Shown here in pieces: positions 4,271 through 63,779 of a DNA stretch of 64,000 bases. Location: positions 15,001-79,000 of the forward strand of contig CAJHNH020002029.1 in assembly GCA_905116865.2 (NCBI GenBank), given 5' to 3'. The DNA comes from Candidula unifasciata. Lineage: Eukaryota; Mollusca; Gastropoda; Stylommatophora; Geomitridae. Position numbers and translations under genes: made by a program. The notes beneath the pieces are model-generated. The model had not been told where the DNA came from, made no database searches, and worked only from the letters and a program-made list of their open reading frames with translations. Positions within the stretch are counted from its first letter, which is position 1. Every line of letters begins with the position of its first letter.

Positions 4271-4432
4271 ATATTAGATTTTCAATCATAACTGTGCAGT
4301 AACAAAGATCTGACCAGCCAAGCATGTCAGCCAAGGTTCCCACACAGCTCCTGGAGGAGATCAACAAGACAGACTCCAGCAGCTTGCGACATGTTGAAGC
4401 CCAGGTGAAGAACCTATTGCCTTCTAATGAGG
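4271..4432 (+). CDS. thymosin exon 1 (5'UTR end, start codon, repeat 1)
   Basis: Acceptor TTTTCTTCCAG ends at 4270. The 53-base leader contains a TAA in the reading frame, then ATG at 4324 begins MSAKVPTQLLEEINKTDSSS. The donor GAGG/GTAAGT gives the last exon base at 4432, leaving one base of a split codon. The repeat has an LRHVEA actin motif in place of LKKTET, the least canonical of the five. Confidence 0.85.
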
Positions 4433-7400
4433 GTAAGTTCCGGAGTATAGCCACATCTTTCTGTTTCCTTGTCAGGACAGGACACAGCAGACTGAACAGT
4501 CACGTCACTCTGTTAAGGTTTACATGATTAGGAAGGGCTGTTGCAAATAGGCACACCGCAGTTGGACTTAAATGAATAAACATTGTACTAAACATAATAA
4601 ATACTGGGCTAAAATACAATTAAATATTAGATTTAAATGATAAATATTGGATTTTAAATAATAAATATTAGACTAAAAATACTAAACATTGGACTAAAAG
4701 TTGTGATGTCATTTTGCTCACTGCCAACAAAACCCGTTTTCTTGGTCAAAGGGAGGTAAAGCATTTTTATGTGTGTTTGTGTGTGCACCGTTGTTATTTA
4801 GTAATTACTTCCCATCACATAAAATATTCACCTTTGTCAAAAATCTCTCTAAAAATGCAAATCCATCATTTTAGTGACTTTTAGGCTGTGAGGACGCAAT
4901 AGCTAGCAGGCTTGCCTGTCTGCTCGGTGGTCATAGGGTTCAACCTCCAGTTTTTTTAATAAAAACTGACCAAGATGCCAAATGTCTTCTCTTCCTTTGG
5001 TTTCTTAAGGTAGGGTTTCGGAGGATTATAACAGTGCATTTATTTCTTGTTAAAGATTTTTGCCTGGTTAAATGAAATGGTTAATACCTCTTTAGACGCA
5101 AACCCCAGTTTTAGTCACTTAAACAACTTAAAATAGGATGAGTTAGAGTAATACTTTCCAGGTACTGAAAGAGTTACCTAACACTTTTATAGGGGCAGCA
5201 GAGTGTAGCCAGGTCATAATGAGTTGAGGACTAGATTCATGTCAACAGTGATATCAGTTAGACCATAAGTCAGGACTGTCCCAGTTATAGATAGTCAACA
5301 AAGATAATTATAGATTGTCAACACAGTTGCCAACAAAGACTGGCCTACTGACCTCAGGTCTTTTTATGTGTGGATCTGCCTAGAGATGCAGAGGTGCTGA
5401 ACCACATGTGATGGTACACCAGCACCAGGGCATATACACCAGCACCAAGGCATATTCACCAGCACCAGGGAATATACTGATCAAGATCTATCTCAACTTT
5501 TCGTGGTCAATCTAGAAAAAGATCAAGACCTATCTACAACTCTTCATGGTAGTTTAAGACCTATCTACAACTCTTCATGGTAGTTTAAGACCTATCTACA
5601 ACTTTTCATGGTTATTCTAGAAATATTTCAAGATGTATCTACAACTTTTCTTGGTAGTTTAAGACCTATCTACAACTTTTCATGGTAGTTTAAGACCTAT
5701 CTACAACTTTTCATGGTTATTCTAGAAATATTTCAAGATGTATCTACAACTTTTCTTGGTAGTTTAAGACCTATCTACAACTCTTCATGGTAGTTTAAGA
5801 CCTATCTACAACTTTTCATGGTTATTCTAGAAATATTTCAAGATGTATCTACAACTCTTCAAGGTCATTCTAGAAGTAGTTCAGAACCGGAGATATGATC
5901 ACCATGGTTATCATAAATACATTTAGACTGTATTGAGCTATGCTTCATTCCAAAAGTTAAGTCCAGTGTGCACATCCATTTTGCAAATCTGGCTTAATAT
6001 TTGCAGACTGTTGGTTCCTCGCCTCTCAGGCAGTTGCACTCCAGCATCAAAGAAAACAGCCCTAATTGAGTGGCTTTCATGGCATGCTTGTTAGGGGGCA
6101 GTGTGTCTGTTCTTTTGTCACCAAAATGGGGCCCTGGAATCCACAGGGGAAAGTAGCACTCTTCAGTATGGGCACCGTTTATAGCCCTGGTGATGCCTGG
6201 CCAGTGTTCAAACTCCTGCCATGTCTTTCATCCAGAGTTACAGTTGTAATTGCTGTAGCGAACCTCTCTTTTGAGATGCTGGATGAGTTCTTATACTCTT
6301 ATCGTCTTTTTAAGCCTCACAGTCACACAGAACTTAACCTTTTGGTTGGACATTTTAAGAAGCCTTGTGTTTATGTTCAATAAAGTATTCCTTTTAAAAT
6401 AAGTTTTGTTTGTTGTTTGTTCACCTGCTGTAAACCCCGGCGGAAAGACATGGTTGTTTGTCCATTTCTGGACTGCGTCTTTGTTCCAGGACACGAGTTT
6501 TGTAAGTCAATTTGTTTTACAGATCTTGCTTATTTGTATGCGGACTGTTGGTTTCTTGCCTCTTAGGCAGATGCACTCCAATTTTTTAAGGAAGTCCCCA
6601 ATTGGTCAACTGTTACAACATGCTTGTTGGGGAGGCAGTGGGTCTGTTCTTATATTCCCCACAATGGGACCCCAGAACCCACACAGGGAATAACAGTTTA
6701 AAAATCCTGGCAGTCATCCTTGAAGACCCAGTATGTTGGGTTAGTTAGTTTGTTGACAGATTATCCTAATTGCACCTTGAACCACTCAGTCCAATAGTGC
6801 TCGGATCCTCTCCTCAGTAAATCCTGCAGCATGTATCGGCTGATGACACCAGTCCTGTGTTGGTTTATTCTTCTTCTTTAGCTACCCGCGTAGTGTTCTT
6901 GTTTGGCGACACCCCGTTTAACTTGCTGCTCTTGCAGTCTGACCATGGTTGCAGATTCACAGTTCTCAATTGGTTCACGCAAACATCTTAGATCTCTTAG
7001 AGCATTCAGTATATCAGCCTGGTCCATGGCTTGTCCAGCTTTCACAGTAGCCTTATCTGCAAGCCTATCAGCTTGCTCATTTCCTTGTACCCCCGCATGT
7101 CCTGGCATGAATAAATCTAGTATCTAAATCTGAACCAGTATGTTGTGTGAGTAATCTCATGTGGCTGCTTCTGTTTCAGCCATCATCCAGGAGAAGACAG
7201 CCGAGTTGAGAGACACGATTAACAATTTTAGCAAAGACCAGCTCAAGCATGCAACTACAGAGGAGAAGATTTTTCTCCCAAGCACAGATGGTATGTTCTT
7301 GCTGTACAGTCATGTATGTGTCAGTGTGAAGTTGTTGCCTTTGTTTTATTGTGAAATTGTTGCTTTCAAATTTTAGTGTGAAATGTTTGCCTTGAAGTTG

Positions 7401-10400: not shown

Positions 10401-13400
10401 CTTCTCTGGGCAAAGGGTTAATGAAAGCAAGTCAGTATTCCAGGCAGACAGATGTCTTTGTCAGATTGGCACCTGACCCTGGCACTGAGCTCTTGCCACA
10501 AGCTTCTGTATTTATGCTCCAGGTATTGATTCTTAGTTAACGCAAACACATGCTTACTCATCCACTTGTATTGTCACTTGTAAACATCAGAGATTCAACA
10601 TGAGAAGGTAGAAGTGGAGTTACGGGAAAGAATTGGATCTTTTCATAAAGAAGAACTTCATCACACGGATACAGAAGTCAAAAATTGGTTGCCGACAGAA
10701 GCTGGTACAAAACCATTTTATACGGTAGTGCCAGATCACGTCGTCCCATCTTACAAACATATACCCCTTTTTCCAGCTTTTTATTTTGGCTTAAACCAAC
10801 TCTATCCTTTGTTGTATTTTTTTCTTGTTTGTAGATTCAATTTATTCCATAGTGATGTTAGCAAGAAAAGTCTTTTTAAGTTTTAGTATCATGCTAGTTA
10901 TGTGGCTGCAACTGGTGCCAGATTACCAGTTCAACCTAAAGAAGGTTTGAGTTCTTATTTTATTGAAAAAAATAAACTTGAATTTTTGGGGTGTTAAAAA
11001 ACAAACATGCAAGCACTCTAGAACGTTCTTCTGGTAAAAACTAAAAGAATTGTGGAAAGCTGCAGTTAATTTGAGTTTAGAGTAGCTGTTAAGAGTTAAC
11101 AGAAGTATACATTAACTAAGACAGTCCTTGAGTTCAGTCACAGGTCAGCAAAATGGAAAGAAGGAGAGACATGACATGACATTGTATTAGTTTGGAAATT
11201 GAGATAACAGAATAGGCCAGTCCAGTGTTGGGTTCTCATAGAATGTAGTTAGTATTTTCTGTGAAATTATAAAGGTCAGTTCTTTTGAAGTCAGAGTGTA
11301 TTTACCTGGGAGGCGAGCCATAACAGTCTGCATGTGGATAAGCCAGATTTTGTGAAACAGATGTGCAGTAAACCTCAGGTTCTGGAACTGGACGAACAAC
11401 CAGAACTTTCAAAACGAGTTTACATCCAGTGAACGCAAAGAAGAACACATGAAGCCAGTAGTTTCCTCTCAGTGGCAGATGTTCAAGTAACAGACAAAAT
11501 TGTCAATTTTAGAAAATGAAAGTATTTTCTTATTAAAGTCATTATTGGTTGGTAGCTAGTGAAGAAGATTGATATAAATGAATGAAATAAAGAGTTCAAT
11601 TTCCTTTGACCTGCTTGAAATCTTTGCTTCTCATTTACTTTTATTGTCCTAAACCCATGCTTGATCATTTCCTAAAAATGTTGAAATCACTTGTTTTCCC
11701 TTCACCTCTGCTTAGATGTAAACGTTTGTTATTTACATTTCCCTTTACTTAAAGACATTTGTCTCATCTATTTCCCTGTACTCAGAGACATTTATCATTT
11801 AGAAAATTCCCTCTGCTTGGAAAAGACATTTATCATTTATATTTCCTGCTTGGAAAAGACATTTATCATTTATATTTGCCTATACTTGGACAAAGTCAGT
11901 TATGTTTCTATGTACTTGGACAACGACATTTATCTTTTGCAAAATTCCTGTACTTAGACAAAAACATTTATCTTTTACAGTTCCCTATACTTGGACAAAG
12001 ACATTTATCATTTACAGTTCCCTATACTTGGACAAAGCCATTTATCATTTACAGTTCCCTATACTTGGACAAAGCCATTTATCATTTACAGTTCCCTATA
12101 CTTGGACAAAGACATTTATCATTTACAGTTCCCTATACTTGGACAAAGACATTTATCATTTACAGTTCCCTATACTTAGACAAAGTCATTTATCATTTAC
12201 AGTTCCCTATACTTGGACAAAGACATTTACATTTCTCTGTACTGGACAAAGTCGTTTACATTTCCCTGTACTTGACATCATTTTATTTTCAACTTCTCAT
12301 TTTCATTTGAGATAATTTCAATTTACTTGGGACAAAAGATACATTTACAAGTCACATGATTGTGCTTTCATTTTTACTTGGAACAGATGTGTCACTCATG
12401 TTGTTTCCCTATATCTGACTTACAAAAGCATTTGTTATTCACTAGATTTCCCTAAATATTTACTGGGGGGGGGGGGGGGGGGGGGAGATTTACTATCTGC
12501 ATAATTTTCCCTTTTCTCTGTAATTAACATTTTTTTCTCTCACCAATACTGGGACAAAATCGATGGACGGGTTCATGCCCCATGCACCCCATTTTACTGT
12601 ATAAACAGTTATATTGAGACACTATATAGCTAGGTGAAGAAACCCACTGTTGTTTATGGATATTGGACGTTGATCTCAGAGAACTAAACTTGAAGAAAAA
12701 CGGAAAAGCTGGAGAAATTAAACAGCAGCTCTAAACCTTGATAAAGATGGCAAGAAACTCTGGAGATTAGCCAAATCACTCAATGAAGAGAGTTTCTCTC
12801 CTAGACAAACAATCACGCTAAGTGATGGTGACAAAATCTTCAGAGGAAAACAAGCTGCAGATTTGTTTGCCAGAACATATAGTGTTGAAAGCAACATGAC
12901 CCTTAATGAGGACCATCAGAGAGAAATAAGGAAAGAAATACAAACAAGCAAACAAACAAATAAGAGACAGACAGATACTCCTGCCTCTATGAGGGAGCCA
13001 TTTACCATGGGCGAACTACAAAATGCCATCTTTAGGCTTAAGTTAAAAAAGTCTGCAGGTCCAGATGAAATCAGCAACGAAATGCTAATCAACCTGAGCT
13101 CATCTGCTAAAGTAAAGCTGCTGGAAATTTTCAACATCAGCTGGGAGAAAGGTTTGGTGCCTCAGGTATGGAGAGAAGCCATCACAATACCCATTTTAAA
13201 AAAAAAGAAAAATTAAGACACAAGCTTCGAGCTATCGCCCAATTAGTCTCACAAGCTGTGTAGGAAAGACATTGGAAAGAATTGTAAATTCAAGACTGAA
13301 ATGGCACTTAGAATCTGAGCAGATCTTGGGTGCCAGAGCAGGCTGGGTTTAGGGAATGTCACAGCATAGAAGACCAAGTCACCTACCTGTCACAAACTGT

Positions 13401-16400
13401 AGAGGATGCCTTCCAAGAGAAGAAAAAGGTCCTGGCGGTATGGGTTGACTTCAAACAAGCTTTTGACAAAGTCTGGAAAGATGGTCTCATTGCAAAACTG
13501 AAGAGAAAAGGAATCCAAGGAAACATGCTAAAATGGATCCAATCCTTCTTACACAGCAGGAGAACTAGAGTCAGTCTTGATGGCCAGCAGAGTAGAAAAG
13601 TGTTACTTCGACAAGGAGTACCACAGGGAGGAGTTATCTCTCCAACTCTCTTTCTTGTGTATATAAATGATCTGGTGAAAGACCTCCCTACAGGAGTAAA
13701 AGCTGCCCTGTATGCAGATGATCTGGCACTCGGGTGTACCGATGAACACACCACAGTGGCAAATATAAGAATGCAGCGAGCAGCAGATCTCTTGATGACA
13801 TGGGCAGAAAAATGGCATGTTGCCATCAACACAGACAAAACATCCACAACGCTTTTCTCTCTTTCCACCAGGGACAAAGCTGCTAGTATTCACCTAGGAA
13901 CATCCTTGCTAAAGGAAGAAAGCTTCCCCACTTATCTTGGAGTAACATTTGATAAAAGGCTCACATGGAGCAAACATATAGAAAATGTAGAAGGGAAGGC
14001 CAGGAGACGACTAGGCCTACTTGGAAAACTGGCAGGTACAGGATGGGGAGCGAATGGAAAAACCCTAAAGAAAGTTTATAATGGAGCGATAAGACCCCAC
14101 TTGGAGTTTGGTGCAACAGCATGGTCAACAGCTGCTAATTCCCATCTACAATCGTTAGACAGAGTGCAAAATCAAGCTCTTAGACTCATCACAGGATCCA
14201 TGAAAACTACACCAATCCTGAAGATGCAGAAAATAACTGCAATGCAGACATTGTCCTATAGAAGAGACACTAAAACTATGATCCAGATGGAGAAGTTTAA
14301 TAGTATGCAGTCACACCCAATGAATAAAAGGTTAGATGATCTGGCATTAGGGCGTCTCAAACGTAGCAGCTTTGTCCATCGGGGGAAAAGACTTAGAAGA
14401 CAGTATCAAGCTGATCTACCTATTAGAACAACACCACTGAAACCTACCCTATACCCTGTACCTTGGGAGCAAGTCAGTGATACAATACAGATAATGACTT
14501 CAGTCAATGGATTCACAACTGGAGATGAGTCCAATGATCTTCAAAAACGAACAGCTGCTCTTAGCATAATTCATGAAAACTATCCCGAACAGTCATGGAT
14601 ACATGTTTACACAGATGGATCAGCAACCAGTGCGGTTAAAAATGGGGGTGCTGGAGTCTTTATTACATACCCAGGCAACCACCGCCACACAAAGTGGATA
14701 CCCACTGGTAAATTCTGTTCCAACTACACAGCAGAGATTGTAGCACTAGAGCAGGCTGCCGAAATGTTACACAACACCAGTTCTGACTGCCACCAAGTAG
14801 TTATATTTACAGATGCGCTTTCAGTGCTTCAAGCCCTCAAGAGTGGCAAACTCCCTCACTTGAGATCAGAACTTGGCAAGGTGGCTGCCCAAAAGTGTAC
14901 TGTACTCCAGTGGGTGCCATCCCACTGTGGTATACCAGGAAACGAAACCGCAGATAAACTTGCTAAAAAAGGGGCAGAATGTGACCAGGAAGAGAATGCA
15001 GTAACATACTATGAGAAGAAAAGGGCCATCAAGGCTATTAGAAGTGAACAGAGTCTGGCCAGAGATGACTACCACTTACTTGACCGGCATGGGCAGGTCA
15101 TTGTCCTACGTCTCAGGACAGGACATAACAAACTTAACCAGCATATGCACAGGCTTCGTCTAAGTAGTTCACCTTTTTGCCCTTGTGGGCTATGTGTGCA
15201 GACTGCAGAACATGTCCTGCAAGACTGTCCCTTGTTCAGCCCATTAAGAAAGGAATACTGGCCCAGTGAGTCACCACTGTACACAAAGTTGTATGGGACT
15301 AAAAATGAACTCATTAAAACAGTCAAGTTTATCACAAGAACCTGTCTGTCGGTGTAAATCAGAAAGCGAACACAAGAAGAAGAAGAAGGACGTTGATCTA
15401 TACTTGGAAGTGTTTGCATTATCTCTGTTTATATAATATAGACAAATATTTCTCTTTACTTTATATAGACAAATATTTCTCTTTGCTTAATATAGACACA
15501 TATTTCTCTTTACATAATATAGACAAAATATTTCTCGTTACTTTATAAAGACAAATATTTCTCTTTACTTTATAAAGACAAATATTTCTCTTTACTTTAT
15601 ATAGACAAATATTTCTCTTCACTTTATATAGAAAAATATTTCTCTTTACTTTATATAGAAAAATATTTCTCTTTACTTTATATAGAAAAATATTTCTCTT
15701 TACTTTATATAGACAAATATTTCTGTTTATAGACAAATATTTATGTTTATAGACAAATATTTATGTTTATAGACAAATATTTCACTTTACGTAATATAGA
15801 CAAATATTTCTCTTCACTTTATATAGACAAATATTTATCTTCACTTTATATAGACAAATATTTATGTTTATAGACAAATATTTCTGTTTATAGACAAATA
15901 TTTCTGTTTATAGACAGATATTTCTGTTTATAGACAAATATTTCTCTTTACATAATATAGACAAATATTTCTCTTCACTCTATATAGACAAATATTTCTC
16001 TTTACTTTATATGGAAAATATTTCTGTTTATAAACAAAAATTTCACTTTACGTAATATAGACAGATATTAATCTTTACTTAATATAGACAAATATTTCTC
16101 TTTATTTTTTATAGACACATATTTCTCTTAATATAGATAAAAATGTCTCTTTACTTAATGTAGAAAAATATTTTTCTTTACTTAATATAGACATAAATTT
16201 CTCTTTACTTTATTTAGACAAATATTTCTCTTTACTTTTTATAGACAGGTATTTCTGTTTATAGACAAATGTTTCTCTTTACTTTATGTAGACAAATATT
16301 TCTCTTTACTTAATATAGACATATATTTCTCTTTACTTTATATAGACATATATTTCTCTTTACCTAATGTAGACATATATTTCTCTTTACTTAATGTAGA

Positions 16401-19400
16401 CATATATTTCTCTTTACTTAATATAGTCAAATATTTCTCTTTACTTAATATAGTCAAATATTTCTCTTTACTTAATATAGACATGTATTTCTCTTTACTT
16501 AATACATATGTATTTCTCTTTACTTAATAGACATATATTTCTATTTATTGACAAATATTTCTCTTTACTTACTATAGACAAAAATGTCTCTTTATACTTA
16601 TTATAGAGAGATACAACCTTCTACTTATAGACAAATATTTCTCTTTACTTAATGCAGACAAAAGCAACATTTTACAGTATTTCTATTACCTATATTTGAA
16701 TAGCAGTATTAGCCATTTACAATATTTTCTTTACCTTGTGCTTTGACAATCATGATTCTGTTGCATTGTTGTTCTTTACCTAGCTGTGGTCATCTATTTA
16801 ATTTTCCTTTGTTTGTGCACAGAGGTTTTATTTGGGCTCCACCACCACATATTTGGTACGCTTCTTGAGCTGAATTTGTACAGAATAATTTACATCAGTA
16901 TCTCCAACTGATCCACCCCGCACTGTAAATAAAAAAAAAAAATTATAAATACAAAATTGTTAAAAACTGTAAAACGGGTTGCTGATAACATTTTTGATCT
17001 AATGACTAGTTTGTACATCTAAAGTTAAGAATGTAGATTAATATGATAACTCCTGCATTTAATTATAGATTAAGAACACATTCCCTCCCAATTTTGATGC
17101 CATTTTATTGGGGGGGGGGGGGGGGGAGGGAGGGAGCGTCCTTGCCACATCTTCAAGGCAGGTGCCTCCTGAAAAAGGTTGGATACCGCTGATCCAGATT
17201 ATTATGTTTAATTCAAATTTTCTGTAATCAGGAATTGCGAATTGAAAGATTGACTCACCATGTGGGTTCTGGGGCCCACTTTTAGAGGGAAATAATAGAC
17301 GGCCCCCCCCAAAACAACCTTGTCATCAGAAACAACTAACTAGGGGTGTTTGTTTGGAGTTGGGCATTATCTGTCCGAGAAGTCAGGAACCACTGATTTG
17401 CATATAAATATTATAGATCTGTGAAATGGATATGCATGCAAAACTCTCAGTTCTGGAACAAGACTAAAGTCGAGAAGTGGGTGAACAACCAGAACTTTTC
17501 CTTTCCACCCACTGGAGTTTACAGCCGCTGGACTGCAAGAAAAAGACATGCTGTGATTCAGACAGTCACTATTTGGAAGTGACTTCAACAGGAGCAGGGA
17601 GCAGAAACCCTGTTCAACCATATAAAACAAATCATTGACCCATCTTGCATTTACAAAGTAGCCACTGTCCGGTTGGCTGGGTTCTTCACACTATTCAACT
17701 GAATTTATTTAGGGGCCACATTTTTTAAAAGGACGATCATCTTCCCTCCTCTAGTGATTGTTCCTGTGAGGAGTTAATTATAATGTTCCTATCTCAGCCT
17801 GGAAGGTGGCATAGACATGCTTCACCATGATAACTCCTAGGTCATGCAGTTGTATTAGTGTCAGAGATTCATTATTGTGCACAAGCCTAGTCTAAACAGG
17901 AATGAAGGTATCTGCTCTGTCCGTGCTTCTTCCTGTATTCTTTGTTGCATTGCTTGCCAGTGGGTTGGTTCATTCAGTACCTTTTATGTCATTATGCCCA
18001 TGAGTGTAGATCCAGGTGAAGCGTGGTTAGGTGCAATTTCCGAGTGCTTTCTGCCCATGGCATGTACTAGCTGTAGTGATTGTGTCTGCTTTATGTTCAT
18101 GGAGTCGTGGGCTACCATGGGTTAACATGTGCTAGCTGTAGTGATTGTGTCTGCTTTATGTTCATGTAGTCGTGGGCTACCATGGGTTAACATGTGCTAG
18201 CCATGGATACTTGTGGCAGTCTACTGCTCCCATCATCATCCTGTATCAGATCCTTTGCAGAACGTCGCTCTCATCACGGTCTGCCTAAAAGTAACTCGGT
18301 CTCTCTCCAGCTCTCCCGCCTCGCGCACTTTCAGTTCCCAGATGAGCAATATTGATAACAACACCTGTCATTGCATTTTTTTTGCAGATCAGTTGAAAAG
18401 TAATTATTTTATCTGCACTGCTAAATCAGTTAAAATATATGCGTAATGTTTCAAAAGTTAGTTTTGTATGTTTTTGTTACAGATGGGATGTTTGTGTATA
18501 TATTATGCTTTCTAGTTATGTCACATTTTATTTTCTTCACAATCTCCATCTTTTCCTTCTTCCAACTGTTCCTCTTTCTACTGTTTTCAAAGAGAATGGT
18601 TGACATCTACTCTTTAACCTGCCTAACTGAGAGGTAAGTATGCATGACTTTTATCATTTTTGTAAACTAAGATTTTACTTCTACTCCATTCAAAGTAGTA
18701 GTCTCTTCCTGTGGACCTTCCCCCTTCCGGGTCACACACATACACACACTACACTGGTTTTGTGTGGGTCATTGCAGGAACTCAGTGGCCTGTTCTATGT
18801 AGTTTACATATTATTAGAGTAACAAAAAAGTGTATTGATCGGGGGGCTTTCTGTTACTCGATTAATTCATAATATTTAACGGCCTCAAAGGTTCCCCCTC
18901 TGTTTATTTATATGTAGTTTACAGTGACTTCCAGAATTTTAGTGTGCAACTTGGCATTTCAGATTTATTACTTTTTTTTTAAAATCGAGGACTAACTTTG
19001 GAATTTGAGACAATCTTGTCCCATGTCCAGTCACACTATTATGTCTTGTCTTCTTGTTTCAGACATTGGACAAGAGAAGAAACAGCAGGAGCTCAAGCAG
19101 TCGATAAGCTGCTTCAAGAGAGATAGCCTCAAGCACGCCGAGACTCAGGAAAAGAACCCGTTGCCTGAAACAGAGGGTAAATATCTTGTCACTGCTAGTG
19201 TCATTCCAACAGAGGGTAAATATCTTGTCACTGCTAGTGTCATTCCAACAGAGGGTAAATATCTTGTCACTGCTAGTGTCATTCCAACAGAGGGTAAATA
19301 TCTTGTCACTGCTAGTGTCCCTCCAACAGAGGGTAAATATCTTGTCACTGTTAGTGTCCCTCCAACAGAGGGTAAATATCTTGTCACTGCTAGTGTCATT

Positions 19401-22400
19401 CCAACAGAGGGTAAATATCTTGTCACTGTTAGTGTCCCTCCAACAGAGGGTAAATATCTTGTCACTGTTAGTGTCCCTCCAACAGAGGGTAAATATCTTG
19501 TCACTGTTAGTTTCCCTCCAACAGAGGGTAAATATCTTGTCACTGTTAGTGTCCCTCCAACAGAGGGTAAATATCTTGTCACTGCTAGTGTCATTCCAAC
19601 AGAGGGTAAATATCTTGTCACTGCTAGTGTCCCTCCAACAGAGGGTAAATATCTTGTCACTGCTAGTGTCCCTCCAACAGAGGGTAAATATCTTGTCACT
19701 GCTAGTGTCATTCCAACAGAGGGTAAATATCTTGTCACTGCTAGTGTCATTCCAACAGAGGGTAAATATCTTGTCACTGCTAGTGTCATTCCAACAGAGG
19801 GTAAATATCTTGTCACTGCTAGTGTCATTCCAACAGAGGGTAAATATCTTGTCACTGCTAGTGTCCCTCCAACAGAGGGTAAATATCTTGTCACTGCTAG
19901 TGTCATTCCAACAGAGGGTAAATATCTTGTCACTGTTAGTGTCCCTCCAACAGAGGGTAAATATCTTGTCACTGTTAGTGTCCCTCCAACAGAGGGTAAA
20001 TATCTTGTCACTGTTAGTTTCCCTCCAACAGAGGGTAAATATCTTGTCACTGTTAGTGTCCCTCCAACAGAGGGTAAATATCTTGTCACTGCTAGTGTCA
20101 TTCCAACAGAGGGTAAATATCTTGTCACTGCTAGTGTCCCTCCAACAGAGGGTAAATATCTTGTCACTGCTAGTGTCCCTCCAACAGAGGGTAAATATCT
20201 TGTCACTGCTAGTGTCATTCCAACAGAGGGTAAATATCTTGTCACTGCTAGTGTCATTCCAACAGAGGGTAAATATCTTGTCACTGCTAGTGTCATTCCA
20301 ACAGAGGGTAAATATCTTGTCACTGCTAGTGTCATTCCAACAGAGGGTAAATATCTTGTCACTGCTAGTGTCCCTCCAACAGAGGGTAAATATCTTGTCA
20401 CTGCTAGTGTCACGAGAAGGAATAAGCAAACAGACAATGTATCAAACGGCACTCATAGAAAGAAGTAGAAAGATAGAAGAACACATTAGACAACATAGAA
20501 ATCGAAAGCTGTAGTTGCCGTGCCGGGAATCGAACCTGCTGTCACCTCCACATGGTGTGTGTGTGCCTCGCTGTGAAAACAAGTGCACTAAGAACATGAA
20601 CAACTAGACACCTCCATGAGAGAGAAGGAAAGAATGTCATTATTGGAACTTAATTACAGTAGGGTAAAAAAAATAATTTAAAAAAAAAAGGGGCGGGGGT
20701 GGAAGGGGTTTTTGAGAAGAGAGAGAAATTGGTGTACATCTTTCCTGTGTTTGTGTGTGTTCCAAGGCCCCACAATCTAACATAAGCATGTTGTAAACGA
20801 CAACTAATCAGTGATTTTTTCCCTCCGAAGTCTGACACGTTTACCTGAGCGGTGAGAAACTAACAGTCTGTATACACGTAAGCCAGATCTGTAAAATGAA
20901 TGCGCATGCAAAACTCAATTTCTAGAAGTGAACAGCAGGAATATCTGCTGGAGTTTACAGCCAGTGAATATGAGGAAGAAGATGATGTCCATCAGGGCAA
21001 GTCAGCTAAGTTTGCCCAGGGTGGAGGTTAGGACAAGAATTCTCGCATGCTATATGGAGCCAGTGTTATCGTGCAGGTTGTGATGCCTGGACAAATAAAT
21101 AAACAAGCCAACAAATTTCTGGAGGCCTCAGAGAGATGATTTTACAGAAGAATCCTTAGAATTCCTTGGAGAGCAGCCCGAATGTTTTGAAAGAGGCGAC
21201 TCAACAGGAGAGAACAAACATCAATTTTTAGACTTTGGACTGGACACTGTGGTCTTCGAGCACACCTGTACAGGATAGGCATAAAAGAATCTGCTGCCTG
21301 TTATTGTGGAGCAGAAAGACAAACCCCTGAACACATACTGCAGTACTGCCCTTACCTCTCCCAGCAAAGACTGGATCTGGCCCAAAGGAGCCACATTGCA
21401 AGAGAAGCTATGGGGGACCGGTGGCGACCTTAAACGCACAATCCTATTTCTGACCCAGACGGGACTCAATGTTTAGCATGACTGATATCGAACGCAGAAG
21501 AAGAAGAAGAAGAAAGAGGCGAGTGCATGAAGACAACTTATCACACATATCAGAAGGAGACATTCATCATGTTTTAGTCGTGTTATGAGAAGAAGGAAAA
21601 TGGAACATATTGTGACAGCTTGTATGAAGTGGCAGTTTTGATTGTAGTTTGTGACACCGTTGATATTATATTGTCCCTGTGTATGTTTTGGGGCCCCATT
21701 TTGTAAAAAAAACAGGAGAGTTGTGAGAATTTAGTCCCTCCTAACAAGCAACAAATTATTAGTTTGCTGACATTGGATGTGTTGGGCCAAAAGGCACAAA
21801 TATCGCAGCCTAACTGTAAACCACAACATGACAACCACCCTTTTAATGGTAAGCTGTTTGTCTGTCTGTGCCTGGAGGCTATTTAATTGTTCCTGTTTTC
21901 TTCAGCCATTGAGCAAGAGAAGAAAGATAACGAATTTCGGCAATCCATCGAAGGATTTGAGAAGACACATCTGAAACATGCTGAGACTGATGAGAAAAAC
22001 CCACTGCCCACTAGCGCAGGTATGTTGTTTTTGTTTCCTTGAAGTCACGATAATCTTTGCCGTTGTCGGTCCCAAGCTGGGATAATAAGGAGGAGGGTTG
22101 GGTGTGGGACTAGTTACCCCACCCTGTAACGGTTTTGTTGTGTGTATAGAAACTTGCAGATAGAATGGAACATTTGACTGTAAGCTCTGGGTGGCATGAA
22201 ATGGCCCAGCAGGACAATGAGGAAGTCCTGATACACTTGGTAGAAGCACATGTCATTTCATTGATAGGTAATGTCATGAGTGTGGTAAATCATCTTCTTC
22301 TTCTTATTCTTCTTCTCCTCCTCCTGCTGCTTCTTCTTCTTCTTCTCCTCCTCCTGCTGCTGCTGCTTCTTCTGTTGTGATTTTTGTGCTCTTCAGCCAA

Positions 22401-24869
22401 TATTTATGACTTCCTCAGGTAGTGGTGTGTGGTTTAACTTTCCAGTGAGTGTGGGCAATGATTCACTTCCACCTGCCAGGATTAACTGTGATCATCATCA
22501 GTCAGCAGGTTCTTAACAGAACGTCTCTGTCTTCACAGCACACTTGAAAGTCTTAGTGCAGTGAAGCAGACGGAGAATCCACACATTGAAAGAGTAATTC
22601 AGTTGGGGGGGGGGGGGGGGAGTAGAGGTTGTGGAAGGTATTCAGCATTGAGGAGGAAACATGACCGGACTTTCAGTCCTTGCAACTGGTACTGTTAGCA
22701 TGTCAACTCTTCGTTGGCTGCTGAAGATGGTGTCAGAGCACCTGTGGGAATGTTCAGAGTGCAGCGATGTCAATTCTGGATTCATTCATGCACACTGACG
22801 TAATGTACCATAGGTGAAACTTGAGTACATTTCAACATGCAGGCAAAGACAAAGTTTCATATTTGATCCAGGGTACGCAGGTGTACAAGGAAATAAGCAT
22901 GCTGATAGGCTTGCAGGTATTGTTTATTTAATAAAGGTTGTACATTGGACAGGACCATAAGTACTCAGATCTCCTGGTGAGTATGCCTTCAAGTGTTTTT
23001 AGGCTGATAACTCCCATTCTGTTTTTTGCTGATGTAATGATTGGTGGCACCTGCATGTTTTTCCTTTCTTGCTGCATGGTACGCCCATGGTTTGCTGCCT
23101 GTTAAGTGAAAAATCATTTTCCACAAAGCTGAAAGCCTCACAGCATTCAGTCTCTTCCAAGTTGTTGATGATGTCTCTGCTGTCCATAGATGGCCCATTC
23201 CTGATAGTTGCATTGCCTGCCAGCGTGTCTGCTCTCTCATTGCCTTTCACACCAGCATGATCTGGGACAAAAATAGGGATTTTGCAAAACACTGCGTGCT
23301 GTATCAGTTGGCGCCACTGTTTTTGTATATGCCCCCACCTTGATCTTCTGTAGCAAGCTCAGTGAGTTGCTGAGAAAGCATGCATAGGTAAACATCTGAG
23401 TTTTCAGCCATTCTAGCACCTTTGTCACAGCCATGACCTCCATTGTTATGTTGCTGGTGGTAGAAGCAAAGGCTTCACTGTCTTCTTTGATTTTTCCTTT
23501 TCTTGCCGTGAAAACCCACACATTTCTTAAGAATTACAAAACCATCTGTATATATAACAGCATTTTCCGGTGATATGTGTTCTTCCACCAAGGCATCAAC
23601 TATTGGTGACGCCAAATCACGGCGCTGTCATGTCAGGGTGATAACCACCACAAAGTACTGTTTATATTCATTTGGTATGGGTATCCATTTCCCCTCCACG
23701 GTTTATGTCTTGAAGGGAAATCACCCGTAGAAGTACTGTCTCTGCACAGCCTAACCAAGACCGGCTTCATTGAAGTCTGTTACCTTTATATGTATTTAGT
23801 TAATCGTGCAGAGGATGTGTACAGATCCCCAGTGATTTTGAGGTAGGCACATGCTTGGCACAGTTCATCCTGCTGTTAATATCTGGAAGATCTAGTAGGT
23901 ATCTCATTGCTCTACATGATGAGCCTAGTATGGTGAGCATTGCGTCATTTTGAACCTTTTCCAGACTGTCGATTTGTGTCTTGCTAAGAGTTAGAATTGC
24001 CATTGCATATTCTGTGACAGAGGCTTTCAGGTGAAGCTGCCATGGACGGCTGATGAGCCATGGACCAGACGGATATTCTGAATGCTCTACGGAGAAGTAA
24101 GATCAAGAGCAAGAGATGACTTCTTCTTCTTTCGTTCGTCTGAAATAAGTTGTCTATATCAGCAATTTTGTCTCTTGTATAAATTTCACTGTTGTTGTTA
24201 ATTCATTCAGTGGTCCATAGAGTTTACGTTCCACTGTTGTCCTTTCTGGCCAAAAGGTTTGCCTTAATGTGTCAAATTCGGTGCAGTCCTGGAGTACATG
24301 CTCAGCTGTCTGGGGCACCTTTCCACAGGTGCACATGGCTGATACGCCTATCTTGAAATTTGTGTACATGTGGTAACGTAATCGGTTGTGCCCTGTTCTA
24401 AGGCGGAGGATAATGACTTGTTCTGATCTGTCCAAAATAAAATAAGTCGTCTTGTGCTGGGGCTGGTGGTTTCCTGATTGATTTAATGATTCTTTTCTTT
24501 TGGTGGTATGTGACTGAATCTGCAATCGTGACCAGACAGTAAGAAGAACATGTTAAAAGGAGTGTGGTCAGACAAGAGCACTTTGCAGGAAGCCAGAGAA
24601 AAAGAATAAACCAACCCAGAACTGGTGCCGGGAGCTGCTACACACGGCAGGATTTACTAAGGAGGGGATCTGAGCACTTATGGACTGAATTGTTTGATGT
24701 GGAATAAGGATAATCTGTCAACAAACTAACAGAGAAAGTTTGATTTAATTACCCTGTTAAAAATTATTATCTAACTTAATAGATCATCATATGATCGTTG
24801 ACCTATACTAACCTATTCTTGTTCTGTCCTTATTCAGAAATAGCTGAGGAGAAAGCTGCAAAAAAGTAA
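4324..24869 (+). CDS. multi-repeat beta-thymosin (five WH2-like actin-binding repeats)
   Basis: Six coding exons join at 4324-4432, 7180-7290, 10591-10704, 19063-19176, 21906-22019 and 24838-24869 (594 bases, 197 residues). Every internal junction is phase 1 and has GT/AG borders, and each exon carries about one repeat. The repeats hold the LKKTET-type actin contact and the following xEKNPLP block in increasingly canonical form: LRHVEAQVKNLLP, LKHATTEEKIFLP, LHHTDTEVKNWLP, LKHAETQEKNPLP and LKHAETDEKNPLP. The last exon adds EIAEEKAAKK and the stop. Known relatives are fly ciboulot and worm tetrathymosin-beta, cytosolic proteins that bind G-actin and can promote filament assembly, unlike the sequestering single-repeat form. 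Repeats 1 and 3 depart most from the consensus and may bind weakly. The introns are loaded with minisatellites and LINE insertions. Additional repeat exons could be alternatively spliced, but I see none in the 8.3-kb gap between exons 3 and 4. Confidence 0.9.
4888..4960 (+). mobile_element. tRNA-like SINE head
   Basis: Sequence resembling a tRNA-derived promoter: an A-box-like ATAGCTAGCAGGC near 4900-4912 and a B-box-like GGGTTCAACCTCC near 4936-4948, followed by a T run. No conserved SINE body follows, so it is a short or decayed copy. It cannot be folded confidently as a functional tRNA from reading alone. Confidence 0.35.
5478..5885 (+). repeat. irregular minisatellite of about 31- and 42-bp units
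   Basis: Tandem units built around AAGACCTATCTACAACT and TTTCATGGTAGTTT alternate with longer units carrying GGTTATTCTAGAAATATTTC. The long and short units occur in a repeating order, suggesting larger segments were duplicated. It lies in thymosin intron 1. Confidence 0.8.
5995..6175 (-). mobile_element. R1 retroposon copy (minus), partial
   Basis: Reverse-oriented R1 fragment recognised by ACTGTTGGTTCCTCGCCTCT, the CATGCTTGTTAGGGGGCAGT segment and the terminal GGGGCCCTGGAATCCACAGG. The tail half of the family is missing. A second R1 copy in the same orientation starts 240 bp downstream. Confidence 0.55.
6418..6692 (-). mobile_element. R1 retroposon copy (minus), near full length
   Basis: Reverse-oriented R1 copy running from GTTCACCTGCTGTAAACCCC (tail side) to GACCCCAGAACCCACACAGG (head side). 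It includes the GGACTGTTGGTTTCTTGCCT and ACATGCTTGTTGGGGAGGCA blocks common to all copies. The terminal GAA run has been lost. Confidence 0.65.
6739..7134 (-). mobile_element. 5'-truncated LINE-A insertion (RNase H end) with target duplication
   Basis: Minus-strand 3' end of an RNase H-bearing LINE: PGHAGVQGNEQADRLADKAT is the classic end of the RNase H fold, followed by AMDQADILNALRDL and a 3' end reading AATCTGTCAACAAACTAAC. It is flanked by an 11-bp duplication, CCAGTATGTTG, at 6728-6738 and 7135-7145, which marks a single retrotransposition event. The insertion lies 45 bp upstream of thymosin exon 2. A second copy of the same 3' end is at 24534-24737. Confidence 0.8.
7180..7290 (+). CDS. 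thymosin exon 2 (repeat 2)
   Basis: Acceptor CTGCTTCTGTTTCAG ends at 7179 and the donor GATG/GTATGT starts at 7291. The split codon gives A, then IIQEKTAELRDTINNFSKD and LKHATTEEKIFLPSTD. The 111 bases make it three bases shorter than the other internal repeat exons. The room between the inserted LINE-A and the acceptor is only 45 bp, so the branch site must lie in the target duplication, the 34 bp after it, or the element itself. Confidence 0.88.
7321..7709 (+). repeat. decayed 30-bp minisatellite directly after exon 2
   Basis: About thirteen diverged units of roughly 30 bp built on TTTTAGTGTGAAGTTGTTGC and CTTGAAGTTG. It starts some 30 bp inside intron 2. The units differ from one another by several substitutions, so the array is old compared with the 17-bp array that follows. 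Confidence 0.8.
7744..9222 (+). repeat. 17-bp minisatellite, 87 copies
   Basis: Perfectly phased array of the unit GTACCACAGTCCTGGTT, with a C/T variant (GTATCAC) and rarer CTTCGTT or CTTCTTT variants. The span, 1479 bp, equals 87 units. Because 17 is not a multiple of three and the unit lacks stops, all three forward frames stay open and encode the same shifted 17-residue peptide. The marker variant TTCGTT recurs at 8554, 8741, 9013 and 9183, spaced by 11, 16 and 10 units with similar C/T patterns between, which points to block duplications. The long open frames here are products of the array, not evidence for a gene. Confidence 0.95.
9406..9650 (-). mobile_element. SINE-2 copy (minus)
   Basis: Minus-strand tRNA-derived SINE. 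The head reads GGCATCCGTGGCTTAGGCG, a B-box-like GGGCTCAACCCCAGC follows, and the body contains GCAGCAGACC and the GCAACAAACTACTCAACGC block. The same body occurs at 46775-47065, 56200-56400 and 61240-61510. Confidence 0.65.
9663..9785 (+). mobile_element. short LINE RT-tail fragment
   Basis: Reads in the + direction as a basic stretch ending WQWIGHMMRQPENSIT, the conserved tail that follows the RT domain in CR1/RTE-like LINEs. It is only about 40 codons long and has no flanking duplication that I can see. Confidence 0.5.
9790..10590 (+). other. thymosin intron 2, 3' part, no gene seen
   Basis: Contains A-rich runs at 9930-9946 and 10023-10036 and otherwise unremarkable sequence. A 62-codon open frame (10352-10540) has no domain I recognise. 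The stretch ends at the acceptor TGTAAACATCAG, whose pyrimidine tract is weak. Confidence 0.4.
10591..10704 (+). CDS. thymosin exon 3 (repeat 3)
   Basis: Begins after ACATCAG at 10590; the split codon gives E, then IQHEKVEVELRERIGSFHKE and LHHTDTEVKNWLPTEA. The donor is GCTG/GTACAA, weaker than the others because it lacks the usual AAGT after GT. Both splice sites are less than ideal, and the actin motif is LHHTDT. The exon is therefore a candidate for optional inclusion, and skipping it keeps the frame because it is 114 bases long. Confidence 0.85.
10705..11290 (+). other. thymosin intron 3, 5' part, no gene seen
   Basis: AT-rich intron sequence without repeats that I recognise and without a plausible additional thymosin repeat in any + frame. 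The open frame running on from exon 3 to 10886 is intron read-through. Confidence 0.4.
11291..11446 (+). mobile_element. R1 retroposon copy, internally deleted
   Basis: Carries GAGGCGAGCCATAACAGTCT, TAAGCCAGATTTTGTGAAAC and ACGAACAACCAGAACTTTC, and ends in GTGAACGCAAAGAAGAAC, a good version of the family's 3' motif. About 15 bases are missing before the GGACGAACAACC segment. Confidence 0.6.
11741..12295 (+). repeat. 37-bp minisatellite in thymosin intron 3
   Basis: About fifteen units with the core CATTTATCATTTACAGTTCC followed by CTATACTTGGACAAAG. The central units (11991-12215) are nearly identical and the outer ones progressively diverge, as expected when an array grows from its middle. 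The unit contains a TTTACAG that resembles a 3' splice site, so the array offers repeated decoy acceptors. Confidence 0.9.
12464..12486 (+). repeat. poly-G run
   Basis: Uninterrupted run of about 23 G between AT-rich flanks, one of several poly-G or poly-C tracts in the window (also 17111-17126, 22605-22620, 28378-28392, 47144-47161, 55122-55138 and 58494-58560). Such runs could fold into G-quadruplexes and are prone to length error in assembly. Confidence 0.8.
12677..15387 (+). mobile_element. Nimb/I-like LINE, 5' truncated, RT plus RNase H, flanked by target duplication
   Basis: A 2.7-kb non-LTR retrotransposon lacking its endonuclease half. The RT fingers start near 12863 (KSAGPDEISNEML), followed by SSYRPISLTSCVGKT, DFKQAFDKVW, RQGVPQGGVISPTLF and the catalytic YADDLAL at about 13711-13731. 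RNase H lies at 14590-14990 (YTDGSAT, TAEIVALEQA, TDALSVLQ, PSHCGIPGNETADKLAKKG), and a C-terminal CPCG-HVLQDCP zinc knuckle comes before the stop at 15355-15357. Two frameshifts kill it: one in the A run near 13197-13213 and one extra G just before 13330. It ends in an AAGAAGAAGAAG tail and is bounded by the 12-bp duplication GGACGTTGATCT at 12665-12676 and 15388-15399. RT plus RNase H with this knuckle fits the I superfamily; Nimb is my best guess. Confidence 0.9.
13330..15357 (+). pseudogene. LINE ORF2 fragment: RT palm, RNase H, zinc knuckle
   Basis: Longest intact frame of the Nimb-like element (675 codons). It runs from PEQAGFRECHSIEDQ (RT motif 2a region) through DFKQAFDKVW, the PQGG turn, YADD and YLGVTFDKRLTWSKHIE to RNase H and the terminal CxC-HxxxxC knuckle. 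The element is 5' truncated and frameshifted upstream of this frame, so no complete polyprotein can be made from this copy. The frame itself is uninterrupted over 2 kb, which suggests a fairly recent insertion. Confidence 0.85.
15428..16660 (+). repeat. 27-bp AT-rich minisatellite
   Basis: Roughly 45 degenerate units of about 27 bp around TATAGACAAATATTTCTC and TTTACTTTA, with shorter units (TTTCTGTTTATAGACAAATA) intercalated. It begins 30 bp after the 3' target duplication of the LINE. Unit length and sequence vary throughout, so it is older than the 17-, 37- and 39-bp arrays. Confidence 0.85.
16665..17250 (+). other. thymosin intron 3 sequence, no gene seen
   Basis: AT-rich intron with an A run at 16930-16940 and a poly-G tract at 17111-17126. 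There is no coding signal or recognisable element. Confidence 0.35.
17255..17560 (+). mobile_element. R1 retroposon copy
   Basis: Starts with ATGTGGGTTCTGGGGCCCAC, contains TGCATGCAAAACTCTCAG and TTCTGGAACAAGACTAAAGT, and ends with TGGAGTTTACAGCCGCTGGA. The middle part (the GTCGTAAGAGTCGACT region) is diverged and the GAA tail is reduced to AAGAAAAAGA. Confidence 0.6.
18061..18191 (+). repeat. 66-bp direct duplication
   Basis: Two adjacent copies of a 65-66 bp segment beginning CATGTACTAGCTGTAGTGAT and ending GTGGGCTACCATGGGTTAA, differing by only two or three substitutions. The flanks from 17560 to 19062 otherwise show nothing I can identify. Confidence 0.85.
19063..19176 (+). CDS. thymosin exon 4 (repeat 4), donor duplicated by a minisatellite
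   Basis: Acceptor TTCTTGTTTCAG ends at 19062; the split codon gives D, then IGQEKKQQELKQSISCFKRD and the canonical LKHAETQEKNPLPETE. The nominal donor is ACAGAGG/GTAAAT with the last exon base at 19176. The same 13 bases recur in each of the following 39-bp units, so this exon has up to 32 equivalent donors. The unit is a multiple of three and has no stop, so the exon could lengthen by any number of 13-codon steps without changing the phase into exon 5. Use of the first donor is assumed here. Confidence 0.88.
19170..20411 (+). repeat. 39-bp minisatellite, 32 copies, built from the exon 4 / intron 4 junction
   Basis: Each unit reads ACAGAGGGTAAATATCTTGT followed by CACTGCTAGTGTCATTCCA, with A/T, ATT/CCT and GTG/TTT variants. 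The first unit begins in the last seven bases of exon 4, so the founder was the splice junction itself. By their translated ends, units 6-18 and 19-31 have the same order of thirteen variants, so a 507-bp block was duplicated (about 19371-19877 and 19878-20384). Four of the six frames are open throughout, including two on the minus strand. Almost all differences are at a few fixed positions, which indicates recent growth and homogenisation. Confidence 0.95.
20512..20600 (-). mobile_element. tRNA-like SINE head (minus)
   Basis: On the minus strand CAGCAGGTTCGATTCCCGGC is an excellent Pol III B box, preceded by TTAGTGCACTTG as a possible A box about 55 bases upstream. The spacing is longer than in a true tRNA, so I treat it as a SINE head or tRNA-derived relic rather than a tRNA gene. 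Confidence 0.4.
20825..20975 (+). mobile_element. R1 retroposon copy, partial
   Basis: Has GAGCGGTGAGAAACTAACAG, TACACGTAAGCCAGATCTGT and GCGCATGCAAAACTCA, and ends TTTACAGCCAGTGAATATGA followed by GGAAGAAGA. The head third of the family is missing. Confidence 0.6.
21200..21511 (+). mobile_element. short 5'-truncated Nimb-like LINE with target duplication
   Basis: Only the last 310 bp of a LINE, closely matching the copy at 42052-42681: the zinc-knuckle region, the GGGGGACCGGTGGCGACC segment, and the 3' end CGAACGCAGAAGAAGAAG. It is flanked by the 11-bp duplication GAAAGAGGCGA at 21189-21199 and 21512-21522. It has small indels relative to the longer copy, so it cannot encode that domain. 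It lies about 395 bp before thymosin exon 5. Confidence 0.85.
21906..22019 (+). CDS. thymosin exon 5 (repeat 5)
   Basis: Acceptor TTCCTGTTTTCTTCAG ends at 21905; the split codon gives A, then IEQEKKDNEFRQSIEGFEKT and LKHAETDEKNPLPTSA. The donor is GCAG/GTATGT. This is the repeat closest to the canonical beta-thymosin sequence. IEQEK at its start matches the linker that follows the NPLP block in single-repeat thymosins. Confidence 0.9.
22285..22378 (+). repeat. TTC/TCC/TGC trinucleotide tract
   Basis: Pyrimidine-rich microsatellite of CTT, CTC and CTG triplets; its open frame of repeated leucines is not a gene. It lies in the last thymosin intron. Confidence 0.8.
22810..22917 (+). mobile_element. 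outer LINE-A copy, left part (RNase H)
   Basis: Plus-strand fragment with PGYAGVQGNKHADRLAG ending abruptly at 22917. The continuation expected from the copy at 6739-7134 (the AMDQADILNALR segment) resumes only at about 24030. About 1.1 kb of minus-strand LINE sequence is inserted between. Confidence 0.6.
22918..24029 (-). mobile_element. inner LINE insertion 1 (minus), RT end plus RNase H
   Basis: On the minus strand the RT end comes first (24003-23800: SKTQIDSLEKVQNDAMLTIL), then RNase H (23520-22999: MEVMAVTKVLEWL, FVPDHAGVKGNERADTLAGN). At least one frameshift, near 23250-23290, breaks the RNase H frame. The block order and residues match the LINE-C type at 210-1625. It splits the outer LINE-A; I see only a short possible target duplication (CAGGT) at its ends. 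Confidence 0.6.
24030..24120 (+). mobile_element. outer LINE-A copy, middle part
   Basis: Continues the plus-strand LINE-A with AMDQTDILNALRR, homologous to AMDQADILNALRD in the 6739-7134 copy, and is then interrupted again by a minus-strand LINE. Confidence 0.55.
24121..24533 (-). mobile_element. inner LINE insertion 2 (minus), Nimb-like 3' end
   Basis: Minus-strand C-terminus of a Nimb-like ORF2: ILRLRTGHNRLRYHMY, a CTCG-HVLQDC zinc knuckle and a stop, then a reduced GAAGAAG tail at 24121-24130. The protein is close to the C-terminal end of the 12677-15387 element but clearly another copy. The LINE-A sequence resumes at about 24534 with CTGCAATCGTGACCAGACAG. Confidence 0.7.
24534..24737 (+). 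mobile_element. outer LINE-A copy, 3' end
   Basis: Matches the 3' end of the LINE-A copy at 6739-7134, ending in the same GGATAATCTGTCAACAAACT sequence. The last exon of the thymosin gene follows only 100 bp downstream. Confidence 0.7.
24838..24869 (+). CDS. thymosin exon 6 (C-terminal tail and stop)
   Basis: Acceptor TTCTGTCCTTATTCAG ends at 24837. The split codon gives E, followed by IAEEKAAKK and TAA at 24867-24869. This corresponds to the short lysine/glutamate-rich tail after the last NPLP block in other beta-thymosins. The phase agrees with exon 5. Confidence 0.88.
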
Positions 24870-39578: not shown

Positions 39579-54695
<15,117 letters not shown>

Positions 54696-61510: not shown

Positions 61511-61550
61511 TGTTAATAATCTTGACAAAATTAAATTTCTTTTTTTTGGG

Positions 61551-63752: not shown

Positions 63753-63779
63753 TGAATTGACTTGTATGTTAAAAAATCA

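Follow-up and report, generated by a model that had tools for sequence, protein, structure and literature searches.

The window, a stretch of 64,000 nucleotides from the gastropod Candidula unifasciata, contains an intact gene for a beta-thymosin with five repeats. Its six coding exons join into 591 nt that encode 197 amino acids, followed by a TAA stop codon, and the joined coding sequence has no internal stops. The features of the gene are as follows.

4324..4432, + strand: coding exon 1 of the five-repeat beta-thymosin gene, with the ATG at 4324 and a phase 1 end at GAGG/GTAAGT
7180..7290, + strand: coding exon 2 (thymosin repeat 2), phase 1-1
10591..10704, + strand: coding exon 3 (thymosin repeat 3), phase 1-1
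19063..19176, + strand: coding exon 4 (thymosin repeat 4), 114 nt, phase 1-1, donor CAGAGG/GTAAAT
20412..21905, + strand: remainder of intron 4, from the end of a repeat array to exon 5, with an in-frame TAG at 20466-20468 and AATAAA at 21094 and 21098
21906..22019, + strand: coding exon 5 (thymosin repeat 5), phase 1-1, acceptor TTTTCTTCAG/CC
24838..24869, + strand: probable terminal coding exon, (E)IAEEKAAKK and stop TAA at 24867-24869, acceptor TCCTTATTCAG/AA, placed by pattern search and in-frame join

The whole protein matches the Pfam family Thymosin (PF01290) in five stretches, scoring 145.4 bits where the cut-off is 24.8 (E 3.9e-43). A profile was also built from the five exons that had first been located by pattern search. 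Among the open frames of both strands, only those five exons lie above its inclusion threshold. The terminal exon is one of two downstream candidates from the pattern search; the pyrimidine share before its acceptor is 0.85, compared with 0.25 in the other. The best match among thymosins in the database is a protein of the clam Mercenaria, with 40% identity over 95%. Judged by sequence identity, the database relatives of the snail protein are distant.

Intron 3 contains a retrotransposon. Among the best 120 of its 1340 matches, the closest reaches 85%, and the named matches include the gastropods Bradybaena, Littorina, Batillaria, and Elysia, the bivalve Ostrea, and a record labelled Solemya velum gill symbiont. 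These relatives point to a gastropod as the probable source of the DNA, although retrotransposons are able to cross between species.

A minisatellite at the edge of exon 4

The 3' edge of exon 4 is the beginning of a tandem array that runs far into intron 4.

19164..20411, + strand: minisatellite with a 39-bp unit in 32 copies; in each copy, 13 nt correspond to the end of exon 4 and the following 26 nt to the start of the intron
19398..19904, + strand: units 7-19, the first 507-bp block of a higher-order duplication
19905..20411, + strand: units 20-32, the second 507-bp block, identical to the first letter for letter

All 32 units are 39 bp long and follow one another without interruption. In the register of the exon boundary, the unit reads CCTGAAACAGAGG/GTAAATATCTTGTCACTGCTAGTGTC, with 13 exonic and 26 intronic nucleotides. 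Every unit (32/32) contains CAGAGG/GTAAAT, which is the donor of exon 4 itself, and keeps the phase of the exon. The GT dinucleotides of the donors lie at 19177+39k, the last one at 20386. The 24-mer around the donor, ACAGAGGGTAAATATCTTGTCACT, occurs in 32 exact copies, all of them inside the array. A search of the whole window for further matches with up to three mismatches found none outside the array, and none was expected from 100 shuffles.

The reading frame of exon 4 stays open through the whole array, and the first stop codon is the TAG at 20466-20468. Joined products with 1, 2, or 31 extra units have 210, 223, or 600 residues, compared with 197 for none, and contain no internal stops. 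Most of this anatomy had been proposed by an earlier sequence-only reading: an array of 39-bp units extending to 20411, the exon's own donor in each unit, and a stop-free unit of 13 codons that leaves the phase unchanged. It had also located the array at an exon of a beta-thymosin, in the stretch separating actin-binding repeats 4 and 5, where each additional unit would add 13 residues. All of these points are borne out. The same reading had the repeat begin within the last seven bases of the exon. The start does fall inside the exon, but the similarity reaches further. Eight exonic nucleotides (19169-19176) match the other units perfectly, and the 13 exonic nucleotides 19164-19176 (CCTGAAACAGAGG) differ from the CCTCCA-type units by two mismatches. 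This exonic unit, unit 1, alone has CCTGAA; the others have CCTCCA or ATTCCA.

The units fall into six types, in the order ABBBCDECFCDBDDBBBBDECFCDBDDBBBBD. At a lag of 13 units, the order contains a run of 14 equal units, a length that was reached in none of 2000 shuffles of the unit order. The identical 507-bp blocks point to either a recent change or an assembly error, as far as can be read from the sequence. In the latter case the assembly would have inflated the array, for instance by placing two alleles head to tail, and the real array would have about 19 units. Identity of units 7-19 and 20-32 over all 507 bp is what such an error would leave, and a lancelet array of a related kind appears to be aberrantly assembled in a genome draft, according to a legend in the supplement of PMC3087553. 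Against this explanation, another array of the window, at 61550-63759, has a comparable perfect self-match of 558 bp at a lag of 666. It was the only other one with such a block among nine arrays examined, the thymosin array with refined ends and the others with the ends given by the repeat search. Since a similar block is present there, block duplication may be usual in this window. An assembly error is judged quite unlikely. It would be compatible with any of the explanations of the array discussed below, and the existence of the array is unaffected by it.

Constraint and coincidence

The window is rich in repeats. Of the 61 rows from a repeat search, 38 passed the limits of a period of 10 or more and 2.5 or more copies, and these were merged into 22 tandem arrays. 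Together these cover 10,524 of the 64,000 bp.

Several properties of the donor array were considered as signs of selection and rejected against this background. An open frame is common by chance: unit type B has no stop in four of its six frames, and when this unit is simply shuffled, 42% of 20,000 versions are open in the frame of the exon. Nor is the length of the unit unusual, since 13 of the 38 repeat rows have a period that is a multiple of three. The absence of indels (0%) is shared with several other arrays of the window. The position at a splice site was compared with rotations of the arrays around the window in steps of 5 bp. In 15% of the rotations an array edge coincides with one of the nine splice sites included, and in 68% at least one of the nine lies inside an array. 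The position of the array at a splice site is a mild coincidence.

The invariance of the donor and the lack of changes at third codon positions were rejected as well. Only four columns vary among units 2-32. All four lie outside the 11-nt donor window, which happens by chance with a probability of 0.25, and none of the four is a third codon position, for which the chance is 0.18. Because so few columns vary and both outcomes are this probable by chance, the sequence gives no visible constraint on donor or coding, with little power to see one.

These observations bear on the idea that the array serves as a ruler for a linker. In this model, regulation or selection acts on the choice of donor or on the length of the array, and the array thereby determines how far apart actin-binding repeats 4 and 5 lie. 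Such a role would agree with 32 invariant donors in units that all have 39 bp, the same phase, and no stop codon. On the other hand, constraint has left no trace in the variable columns. Under coding constraint, synonymous changes would gather at the third positions, which are precisely the ones without changes, and several arrays elsewhere in the window are just as free of indels. The most distant donors would also need exons of up to 1323 nt, and exon definition disfavours long exons. The suggestion of a linker ruler, drawn from the sequence, is weak, and regulation or selection of this kind is very doubtful.

Donor choice and the spacer between repeats

If the first donor of the array is used, the junction between repeats 4 and 5 reads LPETEAIEQEK. 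The span from LP to EK has 7 residues, as in the other three junctions tested. The same length was found in 132 of 200 such spans in 63 thymosin homologues. Of the 68 spans with another length, 40 were inspected; two of the 68 have 33 residues (7+26), one of them being the P0010 insert. Since donor 1 gives the canonical spacer, it is probably the main donor, with the rest of the array forming part of the intron. Exon definition, by which long exons are disfavoured, also speaks for the first donor.

Signs of the peptide encoded by the array were sought in two ways. The words GKYL, KYLVT, and EGKY are found in none of the 63 thymosin homologues, among which the top match is only 40% identical and none appears to be a close relative. 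A search of the protein database with the array peptide, in which only the 7991 candidates with the most shared words were scored, returned 4 matches, all of them to WD40-like proteins that share common words of the GKYLVTAS type.

The sequence-only reading had gone on to propose that the downstream donors are used and that the array sets the length of the spacer. This proposal finds no support in the canonical spacer given by donor 1 or in the WD40-like matches of the linker peptide. In its widest form, several of the 32 donors would be used in a mix set by the length of the array, and individuals or tissues would differ in the spacing of repeats 4 and 5. Such a variable ruler is very unlikely.

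A more modest possibility is that one to a few downstream donors are appreciably used together with donor 1. The resulting isoforms would carry 13, 26, or 39 additional residues between repeats 4 and 5, with no dedicated function. The donors are identical and the products with 1, 2, and 31 extra units remain in frame, both of which favour such use; the lack of the linker words in the homologues, distant as these are, counts against it.

The strength of the donors was compared by pairing with the 5' end of U1, scored for two of the gene's five donors. All donors of the array reach -6.2 kcal/mol, compared with -8.3 for the donor of exon 5, and five further GT sites in the interval 19063-21905 pair more strongly than the array donors. 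Because the array donors are identical, their sequence gives donor 1 no advantage. Predicted folding does not favour donor 1 either. Of three donors scored, donor 12 in the middle of the array has a probability of 0.064 that its 11 nt are unpaired, and donors 1 and 32 have 0.003. The identity of the donors and the greater predicted accessibility of donor 12 both count against donor 1 as the main donor.

Repeated donors might also act without being spliced. U1 is known to suppress polyadenylation within introns in other animals. The array could likewise be a platform that binds U1 snRNP and suppresses premature polyadenylation at the AATAAA signals at 21094 and 21098. It does offer 32 sites that can pair with U1 upstream of two such signals in intron 4, but the pairing is moderate and weaker than that of the five other GT sites in this interval. 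This explanation is extremely improbable.

As possible acceptors, the units overlap with the true ones: the pyrimidine share is 0.55-0.6 at three AG positions of the unit and 0.6-0.8 for the acceptors of exons 2-5. Scans for tRNAs and Rfam families found nothing.

Relatives in other animals and the origin of the array

Tandem repeats of exon-intron boundaries are described as "mirages" in several genes of lancelets (PMC3087553, PMC3902484). Their units are 10-160 bp long, and haplotypes of BflGb6 with 6 and 3 units are reported (PMC3087553). According to the authors, data on Adh3 and RT-PCR suggest that regular splicing is undisturbed, although they warn for the globin genes that the signals of a mirage could be cryptic sites giving alternative transcripts (PMC3087553). 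According to a second account, no aberrant mRNAs arise from the mirages of Adh and TnC; PGBD5 is named there as a further gene, with imperfect repeats (PMC3902484).

The snail array has the anatomy of a mirage. It consists of tandem units that span the boundary of exon and intron, it carries a copy of the splice signal in each, and its period of 39 bp lies within the range of the lancelet units. Likewise, the unit at the edge has escaped homogenisation in both. The differences are that the snail array is found in a mollusc, has 32 near-identical units rather than the 6 and 3 of BflGb6, and is known here from its sequence, whereas splicing was examined in the lancelets. Compared with the mirages as described, it also stands on the donor side, and its unit is a whole number of codons that stays open in the frame of the exon.

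Another relative is the human gene IFI6 (6-16, G1P3). Its minisatellite has a unit of 12 nt. As in the snail, the units supply several donors; in the snail, all 32 carry the exon's own donor in identical form. Two downstream units of IFI6 are reported to serve as donors, resulting in three mRNA species (Turri et al. 1995, cited in PMC4526556). The same work is cited for interference with splicing (PMC3618361) and is included in the reference lists of PMC2915984 and PMC2572611. The gene and the sequence are different from those of the snail, and for IFI6 the use of downstream units with the resulting transcript variants is reported.

IFI6 is thus the precedent for appreciable use of a few downstream donors in the snail. 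The lancelet arrays, which are of a like kind and are said in the two reports to leave mRNAs unchanged, count against it. Such use is considered unlikely, though less so than the ruler or the platform for U1.

Other beta-thymosins with several repeats also have isoforms. In the silkworm, BmTHY1 and BmTHY2 arise by alternative splicing, and exons 2 and 3 have about 114 nt (PMC4608725), a length similar to that of the repeat-bearing exons of the snail. Mercenaria has the isoforms X1 and X2. In both cases the isoforms differ in their repeats; in the passages covered, whole exons or repeats are skipped without a donor array, in contrast to the snail gene with its array. The 38-bp VNTR in intron 6 of TERT and a repeat in intron 5 of dog LHX3 are both presented as linked to splicing. 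Intronic repeats are therefore not always inert, and these two, together with the reported use of IFI6 donors and the warning about cryptic sites in lancelets, speak against regarding the snail array as mere intron.

No earlier array of splice sites, whether from a mollusc or from a thymosin gene, came up among the listed papers of an open-licence library. The sequence-only reading knew of no described case at a beta-thymosin exon; for beta-thymosins these searches agree with it, but minisatellites at exon boundaries are published, as the lancelet mirages and IFI6 illustrate.

The likely explanation is a minisatellite of the mirage type, in which a 39-bp segment at the edge of exon 4 expanded to 32 units, donor 1 is mainly used, and the rest leaves as intron. 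Several observations agree with this. Units of equal length start in the exon and run into the intron. Unit 1 at the edge is unlike the rest, just as array edges escape homogenisation in a lancelet mirage (PMC3087553). The gene is otherwise intact, and the canonical spacer and frame obtained with donor 1 are compatible with undisturbed splicing. The high density of arrays in the window and the similar block duplication at 61550-63759, in an array outside the gene, fit this explanation as well.

By this mirage-type process, a segment straddling the 3' edge of exon 4 would first have been duplicated and then expanded, as the pattern of the units suggests; the mechanism would be unequal exchange or slippage. 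The last large step of growth was apparently the duplication of the block of 13 units (507 bp). The spliceosome would mainly use the donor at 19177, giving the normal exon of 114 nt and the normal spacer, and the remaining 31 units would be removed with intron 4. If one of the next few donors were occasionally chosen instead, the protein would gain 13 residues per additional unit. A wrong choice of donor keeps the frame, since each unit adds exactly 13 codons and the frame of the exon meets no stop in the array. Since the alternatives are in frame, errors would be cheap, and this may be why the array has been tolerated and has persisted.

What makes the array notable is its row of 32 near-identical donors, all in frame, inside an intact gene for an actin-binding protein. 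It is an unusually long, in-frame member of the known minisatellites at splice sites, and is probably spliced out, perhaps with minor use of nearby donors. If inert, it would extend such minisatellites from lancelets and a human gene to a mollusc, and its 32 identical donors, spaced 39 nt apart, would be a clean natural system for learning how the spliceosome picks one of them. If several donors are used, a change in the number of repeats would be a direct change in the length of an actin-binding protein.

Other minisatellites

Two minisatellites occupy the second intron of the thymosin gene, and another array lies outside the gene.

7341-9225, strand not given: two minisatellites, second intron of the thymosin gene, from tandem repeat rows
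61550-63759, strand not given: 37-bp minisatellite, about 60 copies, very regular (98% matches, no indels)

The first of the intronic pair consists of 12 copies of a 30-bp unit and begins 51 bp past exon 2, while the second, with 87 copies of a 17-bp unit, runs from 7743. The splice site lies outside both. The 37-bp array matches itself perfectly over 558 bp at a lag of 666 bp, or 18 units. Like the 39-bp array at exon 4 of the thymosin gene, it carries a block duplication.

Retrotransposon and other open frames

13312-15357, + strand: non-LTR retrotransposon open frame encoding reverse transcriptase/RNase H, third intron of the thymosin gene, from protein database matches
42032-42643, + strand: RNase H-like piece, recognised by eye
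24154-24552, - strand: RNase H-like piece, recognised by eye
50387-51103, + strand: open frame of 238 residues

Among the matches listed, the retrotransposon protein has 85% identity to one database protein and 68% identity, over 84%, to a protein of Bradybaena similaris. A comparable RNase H-like fragment was seen by eye in intron 4, near 21240-21420. By eye, the 238-residue frame looks like a coiled-coil coding exon of a different gene.

A Bombyx isoform with a long spacer

One Bombyx thymosin isoform (P0010) has about 26 additional residues at an early inter-repeat junction, giving an LP..EK spacer, the stretch between adjoining repeats, of 33 residues compared with 7. These residues look as though that protein model included translated intron sequence from beside a thymosin exon.
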